A stretch of 25,695 nucleotides of DNA from a virus, in the IMG/VR virus record IMGVR_UViG_3300021368_001688, positions 1 to 25,695 of that record, one strand, 5' to 3'. The notes under the pieces were generated by a model. That model made no database searches. It was not told the origin of the DNA and saw only the letters and a program-made list of their open reading frames with translations. A program made the position numbers and the translations under genes. How positions within the stretch are numbered: the first letter of the stretch is position 1; each line of letters opens with the position of its first letter. Positions 13,540-15,909 of the stretch are shown here, in pieces.

Positions 13540-13547
13540 TATAAATA
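13540..13547 (+). promoter_or_regulatory. T4-type late promoter box TATAAATA
   Basis: An exact match to the T4 late promoter -10 consensus TATAAATA, in the gap between the glycan cassette and the outer-membrane-type gene. Late transcription in T4-like phages uses the phage sigma gp55. The predicted start is about 13553, which would give a roughly 125-base leader. Confidence 0.65.
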
Positions 13548-13572: not shown

Positions 13573-13603
13573 ACTTTCCTTTTCGAGGGAAGTGTGTTAT
13601 AAT
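13573..13603 (+). promoter_or_regulatory. Extended -10 promoter with an adjoining inverted repeat
   Basis: TGTTATAAT (-10 hexamer 13598-13603) has the TGn extension but no consensus -35. The -35 region is instead covered by an inverted repeat, ACTTTCCT (13573-13580) and AGGGAAGT (13586-13593), ending 4 bases before the -10. This could be an operator or an activator site. It gives the outer-membrane-type gene an early-type promoter in addition to the late box upstream. Confidence 0.5.
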
Positions 13604-13612
13604 TGTTCTCAC

Positions 13613-13656
13613 GCAGACAAGTCGAGTCTGCTTTCATCCGTGGGTAAAACTCCACG
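13613..13656 (+). promoter_or_regulatory. Tandem hairpins in the 5' leader of the outer-membrane-type gene
   Basis: GCAGAC (13613-13618) pairs with GTCTGC (13626-13631), and CGTGG (13639-13643) pairs with CCACG (13652-13656). Both lie between the promoters and the GAGG ribosome-binding site at about 13667-13670. Such 5' hairpins often stabilise abundant mRNAs; function is not shown. Confidence 0.45.
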
Positions 13657-13677
13657 AGACAAACTAGAGGTAAACTA

Positions 13678-14061
13678 ATGTTCAAATCTGCAATCGCTGC
13701 GGCTGCTGCCGCTGTCGCTTTCGCTCCTGCCGCCGCCCTTGCTGGCCCCTACGTCAACGTAGAATCCAATGCATCGTGGGCTGGGGACGACTACACCGGA
13801 GCAACCACTGATTTCCATGTGGGCTACGAAGGTGCTATCGGTGATGGTAATGCTGCTTGGTACGTCCAAGGCGGCCCCGCTATCGTCGCTGTTGACGGTG
13901 AAGAGAATGAGACCCGCTTCTCTGGTAAGATCGGCGCTAGTGCCGCTCTGTCCAGCAGCGTTGGTGTCTATGGCGAACTGAGCGCCATCACCGCTTCTGA
14001 CGAACTCTCTACCGACAACCTTGGCGTTGGTGGTAAGTTGGGTGTCAAGTATTCCTTCTGA
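13678..14061 (+). CDS. Secreted, predicted outer-membrane beta-barrel-type protein, copy 1
   Basis: A 127-residue exported protein. A Sec signal peptide (MFKS, then an Ala-rich core) ends at ALA|GPYV, cleavage after residue 22. The mature ~105 residues alternate polar and nonpolar residues in short strands and end in LGVKYSF. A C-terminal Phe with aromatic residues at alternating positions is the classic outer-membrane insertion signal. It is a paralogue of the next gene (shared GPYV, DDY/EDY, VGYE, YV-GG, YGE/YGK and KY-F). At ~105 mature residues it is short for an 8-stranded barrel, so a smaller or oligomeric barrel is possible. Codons are much more C/G-rich than in the glycan cassette, like psbA, suggesting high expression or a host origin. 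GAGG lies 7 bases before the ATG. Confidence 0.8.
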   Translation: MFKSAIAAAAAAVAFAPAAALAGPYVNVESNASWAGDDYTGATTDFHVGYEGAIGDGNAAWYVQGGPAIVAVDGEENETRFSGKIGASAALSSSVGVYGELSAITASDELSTDNLGVGGKLGVKYSF

Positions 14062-14105
14062 TAACCACATCTTAATTAAGTAAGGATATCCAAACGATCA
14101 AACTG

Positions 14106-14132
14106 CCGTCCCCCACAAGGGACGGTTTTTTT
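14106..14132 (+). terminator. Rho-independent terminator
   Basis: CCGTCCC (14106-14112) pairs with GGGACGG (14119-14125), a 7-bp GC-rich stem with a 6-base loop, followed by seven T. It ends the first outer-membrane-type gene. Confidence 0.9.
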
Positions 14133-14185
14133 GTGGTTAAAATACGATTATTGAGTGCTATATACGAAGGTTTTCATCAAATCAA

Positions 14186-14218
14186 CTTAATTTGATATTA
14201 ACCAAACCCTGTTATAAT
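14186..14218 (+). promoter_or_regulatory. Pho-box-like repeats and extended -10 upstream of the outer-membrane-type gene and pstS
   Basis: Two 8-base units, CTTAATTT (14186-14193) and ATTAACCA (14197-14204), are separated by 3 bases. This 11-base period and the YTTAA core resemble cyanobacterial PhoB boxes. They end 8 bases before TATAAT (14213-14218), which has a TGT extension and no good -35 at 17 bases, as in activator-dependent promoters. The same stretch contains a perfect inverted repeat ATCAAAT (14176-14182) / ATTTGAT (14190-14196). Control by host PhoB is inferred. Confidence 0.5.
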
Positions 14219-14249
14219 ATACAAGTAATCCACAAAGGAGAACACAACA

Positions 14250-14615
14250 ATGAAAACACAAGCACTTGCCGCACTGGCACTGATCGCCCTGGCGACACCT
14301 GCTATTGCTGGACCTTATGTTGAGTCCAAGCACGAATTCAAAGGCACAGACGAAGATTATAAGAAAGCCGTTCACCAAGGACGTGTCGGTTATGAGTGGA
14401 AGACTGGAGCACTTTCCCCTTACGTTGAGGGTGGTCTGGGTGTAGAAATGCCTGATGGTTCTAACGACACCAATACCTTCAAGGCACTGGAAGTCGGCAC
14501 CAAACTGAAGGTGACTGATAACTTCTCTGCTTATGGTAAGTGGGAAAACATCTTCCAAGACAGTGACGACACCCGTGACTGGAAAGTAGAAGTCGGCACC
14601 AAGTACAAGTTCTGA
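14250..14615 (+). CDS. Secreted, predicted outer-membrane beta-barrel-type protein, copy 2
   Basis: A 121-residue exported protein. The signal peptide MKTQALAALALIALATPAIA is followed by cleavage before GPYVES (after residue 20). The mature 101 residues read as amphipathic strands and end in VEVGTKYKF, with the terminal Phe expected of an outer-membrane beta-barrel. Similarity to the gene at 13678 runs the whole length (GPYVES, DEDYKKA, VGYEWKTG, SPYVEGG, FSAYGKWE), so they arose by duplication. It has a good AGGAG site 9 bases upstream and lies 10 bases before pstS, apparently in one operon under a Pho-box-like promoter. Possible roles are a phosphate-starvation channel, surface change or superinfection exclusion; none is shown. 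Confidence 0.8.
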   Translation: MKTQALAALALIALATPAIAGPYVESKHEFKGTDEDYKKAVHQGRVGYEWKTGALSPYVEGGLGVEMPDGSNDTNTFKALEVGTKLKVTDNFSAYGKWENIFQDSDDTRDWKVEVGTKYKF

Positions 14616-14625
14616 TATCTGATCA

Positions 14626-15600
14626 ATGAAACTCAAAGCAATCGCTGCCACTCTAGTCGCAGCTCCCATGCTCGTAGCATGTGGTGGAACAGAAACAAAA
14701 AAAGTTGTAACCCTCAATGGAGCAGGTGCTACATTCCCAGCACCTCTCTATCAAGCATGGTTTCAAACCTATGCCTCTACTGGTGGCCACAGAGTAAACT
14801 ATCAAGCAGTTGGTAGTGGATCTGGTGTTCGTCAGTTCAAGGCAAAAACTGTTGATTTCGGTGCCAGCGATGGTGCTGTGAGTGATAACAAAATGCCAGC
14901 AGAAGGAATGGTTCACATTCCTATGACTGGTGGAGCAATCGTCCCTGCCTACAACAATCCTGGTTGTGACCTTAAGATTACCCAGACTCAACTCGCTGAT
15001 GTGTTCTTGGGTAAGATTACTAACTGGTCTGAGTTGGGTTGTGCCGACAAGCGAATCACAACTGTCTGGCGTTCTGATGGTTCTGGAACTACCAAAGGAT
15101 TTACCAACTCCCTGTCTGCCTTCTCTCCTGAGTGGAAAGAAAAGGTAGGAACAGGTAAGGCAGTAAACTTCCCTGTTGGTGTGGGTGGTAAAGGCAACTC
15201 TGGTGTTGCTGCTGGTATTAAAAACCTTGATGGTTCTATCGGTTATCTAAACTATGGTTATGTGAATGGTGGTCAGTTCCAACAAGCTTCCATTCAGAAC
15301 AAAGCAGGAAACTTTGTGAAAGCAAATAGTGAAACTTCTGCTGCTGGTCTGTCTCAGATTGTCTTGGACGATCAACTGCGTGGTGCCGATCCTAATCCTG
15401 CTGGTGCCAATTCGTATCCTATTGTTTCTTTGACCTGGATCCTTGCGTATCCTGAGTCTCCTAAGAACGAGGCTGTAAAGGATACACTACGATATACTCT
15501 GAGTCCTGAAGCACAAGGTATTTCAGATTCTCTGGGATATGTACCTCTCCCAGAAGATCTTCGACAGAAATCTCTTGCTGCTGTTGAGACTTTGAAATAA
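14626..15600 (+). CDS. pstS: Phosphate-binding lipoprotein PstS
   Basis: A 324-residue periplasmic phosphate-binding protein of the PstSCAB ABC importer. The N-terminus is a lipoprotein signal with lipobox LVAC, Cys19 being the lipidated residue. NGAGATFPAPLY follows directly, then GSGSGVRQF and DFGASDG, and the phosphate-binding loop SDGSGTT at residues 150-156. All are hallmarks of PstS. Length is normal for the family and the gene looks intact. It starts 10 bases after the outer-membrane-type gene with no clear Shine-Dalgarno, so translation may be coupled. Cyanophage pstS genes are known to respond to host PhoBR under phosphate starvation; the Pho-box-like repeats at 14186-14204 fit that. 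Confidence 0.97.
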   Translation: MKLKAIAATLVAAPMLVACGGTETKKVVTLNGAGATFPAPLYQAWFQTYASTGGHRVNYQAVGSGSGVRQFKAKTVDFGASDGAVSDNKMPAEGMVHIPMTGGAIVPAYNNPGCDLKITQTQLADVFLGKITNWSELGCADKRITTVWRSDGSGTTKGFTNSLSAFSPEWKEKVGTGKAVNFPVGVGGKGNSGVAAGIKNLDGSIGYLNYGYVNGGQFQQASIQNKAGNFVKANSETSAAGLSQIVLDDQLRGADPNPAGANSYPIVSLTWILAYPESPKNEAVKDTLRYTLSPEAQGISDSLGYVPLPEDLRQKSLAAVETLK

Positions 15601-15605
15601 TATCA

Positions 15606-15630
15606 GGGGGTCGTAACAGACCCCCTTTTT
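15606..15630 (+). terminator. Rho-independent terminator of pstS
   Basis: GGGGGTC (15606-15612) pairs with GACCCCC (15619-15625), 7 bp with a 6-base loop, followed by five T. The next promoter's -35 begins 5 bases later. Confidence 0.9.
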
Positions 15631-15635
15631 AATGC

Positions 15636-15664
15636 TTGACAAAAATACATAATTGCTATATAAT
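15636..15664 (+). promoter_or_regulatory. Consensus sigma-70-type promoter of the hli operon
   Basis: TTGACA (15636-15641), 17-base AT-rich spacer and TATAAT (15659-15664), both hexamers perfect. The predicted start is near 15671, about 20 bases before the Hli ATG. It should be recognised by the host housekeeping sigma factor, so early expression is expected. Confidence 0.85.
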
Positions 15665-15690: not shown

Positions 15691-15909
15691 ATGACCGTCA
15701 CAACTAATGATCGCGGACAGCAGAACATGTGGGCGAAAGAACCTACCATGTACTACTCTAAAGAAGACATGGAGCGTTATGGTTTTGAACCCTATGCAGT
15801 TCGTGCAGAGCGTGCTAACGGACGCTGGGCTATGATGGGATTCGCTGCTGCAATGATCTCCTATGCTACTTCCGGCAGTCTTTTCTTTTTCGGACTCTTC
15901 GGAATCTGA
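15691..15909 (+). CDS. hli: High-light-inducible protein (Hli)
   Basis: A 72-residue Hli/SCP protein, a single-helix relative of plant light-harvesting proteins that sits in the thylakoid membrane, binds chlorophyll and carotenoid, and protects photosystem II. The membrane helix carries the motif AERANGRWAMMGFAAAM (about residues 39-55), with the chlorophyll-binding Glu, Asn and Arg, and ends in a hydrophobic tail (SLFFFGLFGI). The hydrophilic N-terminal ~35 residues are typical of cyanophage Hli. It is directly downstream of a perfect consensus promoter. A second, shorter Hli gene follows 35 bases later. Confidence 0.93.
   Translation: MTVTTNDRGQQNMWAKEPTMYYSKEDMERYGFEPYAVRAERANGRWAMMGFAAAMISYATSGSLFFFGLFGI

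Follow-up and report, generated by a model that had tools for sequence, protein, structure and literature searches.

Two Related Genes Directly Upstream of pstS

The window analyzed here, the whole 25,695-nucleotide stretch of virus record IMGVR_UViG_3300021368_001688, carries two small related genes followed by pstS; all three, and the control elements described below, lie on the plus strand. Gene 1 (13678-14061), called as an open reading frame, encodes a protein of 127 amino acids with a signal peptide at residues 1-22, and gene 2 (14250-14615) encodes one of 121 amino acids with a signal at residues 1-20. In both proteins the Sec-type signal, read by eye, ends in AxA before GPYV (ALA-GPYV in gene 1, AIA-GPYV in gene 2), leaving mature chains of 105 and 101 amino acids that end in KYSF and KYKF, respectively, and the two proteins share 29% identity. 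The combination of a Sec signal and a C-terminal aromatic-x-Phe, a general mark of outer-membrane beta-barrel proteins, is thus present in both. The gene that starts 10 bp after gene 2 (14626-15600) encodes the phosphate-binding protein PstS according to its match to TIGR00975 (9.5e-83); among cyanophage phosphate genes, pstS is the textbook case. The preliminary description of this locus, as two secreted proteins ending in KY-x-F and adjoining pstS, is therefore confirmed, with exact reading frames and the mature lengths that it gave. A reverse-strand open reading frame of 131 amino acids (13675-14070) overlaps gene 1.

A Cyanophage Family With Two Types

Both proteins match the Pfam family PF24653 (Phage_OMP, "Cyanophage outer membrane protein like beta barrel") over their full length, gene 1 with 8.6e-47 (158.8 bits) and gene 2 with 1.2e-41 (142.3 bits), far above the curated cut-off of 27 bits; both also match phrog_417, a family of unknown function. 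PF24653 itself is described as an outer-membrane-like barrel without a function. Members are often labeled DUF680 in GenBank and correspond to PhCOG173, listed under the name "DUF680" for 15 of 16 early cyanomyovirus genomes (PMC3037559), although neither gene matches the current Pfam DUF680 at E<=1. All three collections, PF24653, phrog_417 and PhCOG173, share with our genes the full-length match, the signal and the C-terminal Phe. The latter was found in 227 of 227 PF24653 members of a first set of loci, nearly all ending in aromatic-x-F, and in 107 of 109 members of a second, more distant set, and on these counts it is not a matter of chance. Using tblastn, relatives were detected in 469 records with gene 1 as query and in 407 with gene 2, among 50,697 phage records, all of them from cyanophages. 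Phage outer-membrane proteins had been called rare; with a family spread over about 470 cyanophage records and already possessing a Pfam model, this statement is wrong. In some podovirus-type contigs, the family gene lies between psbA or scaffold and capsid genes (L283:2202-2561, L284:2179-2532).

The relatives form two types, type 1 (gene 1-like) and type 2 (gene 2-like), with approximately 32% identity between them. The order type 1, type 2, pstS occurs in 57 of 163 loci and type 2, pstS in 35, in a set where many loci end at contig ends and neighboring loci may share one contig. Type 1 is also found apart from pstS, for example in S-TIM4, where it adjoins nrdC. This phage has a single family member, of type 1 and preceded by the RNA leader described below, and possesses pstS without gene 2; gene 2 is therefore not required for PstS. 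The literature that we searched on the PF24653 family yielded no mention of the split into two types, of their separate regulation, of the RNA leader or of the two-unit host relatives.

Gene 1 and a Candidate Regulatory RNA

Upstream of gene 1 lie a T4-type late-promoter box, ATAAATA (13541-13547), and a -10-like TATAAT box (13598-13603), the latter recognized by consensus match only. ATAAATA occurs within 170 bp upstream of 63 of 85 distinct type-1 loci and of none of 76 type-2 loci, and type-1 genes often carry a sigma-70-like box besides the late box. In L120, L092, L111 and others, which have ATAAATA as their only box, a further hairpin, variable in sequence, often begins approximately 4-5 nt after it, near the expected 5' end of the transcript.

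Nine nucleotides after the TATAAT box begins a predicted two-hairpin RNA leader (13613-13656; covariance model R1), followed by a Shine-Dalgarno-like GAGG (13667-13670) identified from sequence. Hairpin 1 (13613-13631) reads GCAGAC-AAGTCGA-GTCTGC, and a CATC linker (13635-13638) connects it to hairpin 2, formed by CGTGG and CCACG (13639-13643/13652-13656); the loop GTCGA (GUCGA in RNA) and the linker are invariant. A simple pattern of this leader is present in 105 of 119 type-1 upstream regions, against 0 of 95 for type 2. Across 54 aligned sequences, standard pairs make up 99.2% of the pair cells, and 134 cells show double changes vs. 32 +- 6 in shuffles, while slid controls collapse. The count for helix 1 is biased, because training rows were picked with at least five pairs in this helix; helix 2, which was unselected, is 100% paired. 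A recount of pairs on model-detected matches agrees with this, although it leans on the model and overlaps the training set. The model scores 70.8 bits on the leader of the window, itself a training sequence, and 66 bits on the S-TIM4 copy, which lies outside the training set. Exactly one copy was present in 11 of 13 phage records and two copies in none, and those copies whose coordinates were compared adjoin a type-1 gene. Among 201 host-family genomes the leader was found in one, within a phage contig. In L015, L032, L035 and L119, the common type-1 leader is replaced by a CACATGTG-type or similar palindromic hairpin.

The leader loosely recalls the glutamine riboswitch; its identity with a known riboswitch is ruled out by a search of Rfam 15, where no family matches it. 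We regard this element, strongly covarying and present once per phage genome searched, as a possible new regulatory RNA of a virus group that is abundant in the sea; it may stabilize the 5' end of the mRNA, or bind a ligand or protein.

Gene 2 and pstS Resemble One Phosphate-Starvation Unit

The control elements of gene 2 are of a different kind. A terminator-like hairpin with a T run (14105-14132) lies in the gap between the two genes, and it is followed by a putative Pho box (14186-14204), an 11-bp tandem repeat of the form CTTAATTT-gat-ATTAACCA, in which two 8-bp units are separated by a 3-bp spacer. This is the only YTTAAN6HTTAA within the window, and a consensus-only -10-like TATAAT box (14213-14218) stands just 3' of it. 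TTAA-N7-TTAA was found upstream of 50 of 75 type-2 genes and of 1 of 86 type-1 genes (shuffles: mean 2.9, maximum 9). In 81 of 87 loci, pstS starts 9-11 bp after the type 2 stop, and in the window a second terminator-like hairpin follows pstS (15605-15631). Since the Pho box and the hairpins bracket them, gene 2 and pstS look like one two-gene unit responding to phosphate starvation. Control of cyanophage genes by host PhoB has been established for other phages (PMC10976474). S-PM2d169, which phosphate starvation induces, was considered as a family member and rejected, as it is a different protein and S-PM2d lacks a PF24653 gene.

The two genes had been taken for one functional pair. This is not supported: their promoters differ, a terminator-like hairpin stands between the two and a Pho box is missing from gene 1, and, going by these elements, they are controlled separately.

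Predicted Fold, Strand Count and Inward Charge

AlphaFold2, run on an alignment of 112 sequences, predicted six antiparallel strands per mature chain for both genes, with pLDDT of approximately 90-96 (~95 in the mature part of gene 1 and ~92-96 in that of gene 2). In all six strands, hydrophobic residues facing outward alternate with polar residues facing inward, and the turns between them are mostly short (~2-11 residues), with no long loops of receptor type. Foldseek searches of the PDB placed outer-membrane barrels on top (OmpX, OprF, the OmpT porin of V. cholerae, OmpG, NspA and de novo barrels), with probabilities up to 1.00, but with E of 0.02-0.2 and TM of approximately 0.45-0.57; some unrelated beta folds, e.g., avidins, appeared at lower ranks. 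Such weak values would be expected if six strands are laid over eight or more. By sequence, the best match to a solved structure was an autotransporter with E 0.098, and no solved relative was found. An outer-membrane barrel had been proposed for each protein: the outer-membrane beta-type fold stands, given PF24653, the barrel matches obtained with single predicted chains and the strand alternation. Both models have six strands per chain, so that an oligomer would be needed to reach eight or more. OmpX, OmpA and OprF, which resemble both proteins in the Foldseek matches, the alternation and the C-terminal Phe, differ from them in having longer chains of eight strands.

Couplings from a mean-field analysis of 242 sequences (61 effective) ranked 1-2, 2-3, 3-4, 4-5, 5-6 and 1-6 as the six best antiparallel pairs among the 15 possible strand pairs. 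The five neighboring pairs together with 1-6 indicate that the amphipathic sheet closes into a ring, either within one chain or between chains, although closure depends on the 1-6 coupling, which ranks last among the six (z 3.58; 0.2% of 448 null diagonals score as high). According to our calculations, the register sums give a shear of 10 and a radius of approximately 7 A for a six-strand ring, and a shear of 20 and a radius of approximately 13.6 A for a 12-strand dimer.

Glu/Lys partners fill the inward face, which differs between the types. Type 1 shows a Glu27-Lys81-Glu97-Lys114 pattern (gene 2 numbering), which is reversed to Lys-Glu-Lys-Glu in type 2. Type 2 chains carry on average 9.9 inward Lys/Arg and type 1 chains 3.5, with a mean inward net charge of +2.1 and -0.95, respectively; for the proteins of the window, this charge is only +1 (gene 2) and 0 (gene 1).

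Two-Unit Relatives in Host Genomes

The authors of the S-TIM4 study reported no homologue in their host strains (PMC6224464). Our profile search of 300 host-family genomes gave weak but over-threshold matches in longer proteins. A first host type (240-265 amino acids) consists of two tandem PF24653 units, i.e., 12 strands, matched in two stretches with 8.7e-14. The first half repeats in the second (HHalign 98.8%, 33% identity), and against the type-1 profile the halves score 96.5% and 91.7%, both keeping the type-1 Glu27-Lys81-Glu97-Lys114 pattern. That types 1 and 2 each represent one host half was considered and rejected, as both halves match type 1 better. A second host type (~320 amino acids) has a His/Asp-rich insert and one clear C-terminal unit. 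Judging from neighbor names read from translations, it lies 43 bp after znuA and beside znuB/znuC in one locus (L292), and near znuA and a CobW-type GTPase in another (L290). We consider these uncharacterized outer-membrane-type proteins beside zinc-uptake genes (L292:5166-6122, L290:5528-7364) candidate outer-membrane zinc channels. In Synechococcus WH8102, synw0972, an uncharacterized gene downstream of znuA, is induced at low zinc (PMC9337993), and by its position it is probably the orthologue of the second host type.

The host two-unit proteins thus resemble the phage pair in their unit, in the type-1 belt residues and in a gene location beside that of a periplasmic binding protein; they differ in being one long chain, in the His/Asp-rich inserts of one type and in having zinc instead of phosphate neighbors. 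Going by these sequence comparisons, each phage protein resembles one half of a larger membrane channel of the host. Host genomes were also considered as a source of single-unit genes, but the strong intact matches examined were phage contigs, with nrdB, heme oxygenase and a cupredoxin-like gene in L247 and with capsid/scaffold genes in L283 and L284. On a 2.4-Mb host contig (L282, G129:C1:132523-132861), a single-unit type-1-like gene is broken by a frameshift and stops; it is perhaps a relic of phage DNA.

A Possible Phosphate Pore and Its Alternatives

The reading that we favor, with middling confidence, is that gene 2 encodes the subunit of an outer-membrane pore made at phosphate starvation and feeding PstS, and gene 1 a sister subunit that is otherwise expressed. 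Both would be secreted outer-membrane beta proteins of one six-strand unit each, strand 6 pairing with strand 1, most likely that of a partner chain, to give a 12-strand barrel like that of the host two-unit proteins; that the phage chain is half of the host chain is our main reason for preferring a dimer. Host PhoB would turn on gene 2 and pstS together at phosphate starvation, and the gene 2 pore, with its more basic lumen, would let phosphate reach PstS. Gene 1, with its own promoters, structured RNA leader and host-like charge pattern, may encode a pore or wall protein serving another solute or purpose. When S-TIM4 evolved on WH8102 in replete medium, loss-of-function mutations of its type-1 gene reached approximately 100% (PMC6224464); on this published evidence, type-1 loss is selected in phosphate-replete culture, and at least one host makes gene 1 a burden to the phage. 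The published phosphate link of the S-TIM4 gene may have mixed both types. We infer outer-membrane secretion, the dimer, the pore, phosphate passage, PhoB binding and a function of the leader, and for the pore and its substrate we do so from gene neighbors, regulation and charge.

The entry of phosphate suggested in the preliminary description gains from the Pho box of gene 2, the two-gene unit with pstS and the more basic inward face of type 2; the host analogy, which is to zinc and not to phosphate, speaks against it. The phosphate porins PhoE and OprP are like type 2 in their phosphate-starvation promoter and more basic inward face. They are trimers of 16-strand chains, and a Pfam search found no sequence relation to either gene. 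In the literature we found no account of extra phosphate crossing the host outer membrane, and a Pho-controlled outer-membrane subunit encoded directly before pstS would fill this gap. The link to the znuA-adjacent two-unit proteins would also suggest a role for uncharacterized, zinc-induced host genes.

A more far-reaching version, which is possible although we would not expect it to hold, sees here a split host 12-strand nutrient channel, whose six-strand subunits of two charge-reversed types form homo- or heterodimers of differing selectivity, one under the control of host phosphate signaling, the other under that of a structured mRNA leader of a new class. If true, the choice of gene expressed would tune an outer-membrane barrel made of two subunits.

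It is unlikely, in our opinion, that the proteins instead change the host surface late in infection, blocking further phages or the adsorption of progeny to debris, in a Lom-like or superinfection-exclusion role. The late-type promoter usual for gene 1 (63/85) would suit this, as would its position here after a run of glycosyltransferase-like genes (fucosyltransferase-like, GT25). The selected loss of type 1 in one host would also be expected of a host-specific surface trait. However, the association of gene 2 is with pstS and a Pho box rather than with surface genes, and the mostly short turns offer no receptor-type loops. The comparison with Lom drawn earlier is not supported either: lambda Lom/Ail is likewise a phage-encoded outer-membrane protein, but our proteins have fewer strands and a shorter chain, and neither has a Pfam or NCBIfam match to the Lom/Ail/OmpX family at E<=1.

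Rather improbable, to our mind, is a monomeric reading, in which the six strands of each protein close on themselves around a filled interior and the product serves as a small wall or anchor protein, poreless and OmpA-like in mode. In its favor, the 1-6 coupling fits closure within one chain, the calculated shear of 10 and radius of ~7 A come close to an eight-strand OmpX-like barrel and Glu/Lys partners fill the inward face. Against it, the host homologues are tandem two-unit chains, and a solute-binding protein gene so closely coupled to gene 2 fits a pore better. We know of no six-strand transmembrane barrel.

Outer-membrane fragments are common contaminants of phage preparations. A family member was detected by LC-MS, with 2 peptides, in a virion preparation of S-SZBM1 (PMC9146016), and it is probably of type 1, since its gene adjoins nrdC. 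A part for the type-1 protein in particles, morphogenesis or the lysis program, which this detection and the podovirus copies near capsid genes (L283, L284) might suggest, is very improbable in view of the Sec signal and outer-membrane barrel features and of S-TIM4, where mass spectrometry found the protein absent from particles and it is dispensable (PMC6224464).

Elsewhere in the window, a perfect TTGACA-17-TATAAT promoter (15636-15664) stands directly before a high-light-inducible gene at 15691, and four tRNA genes lie in a row at 671-971.
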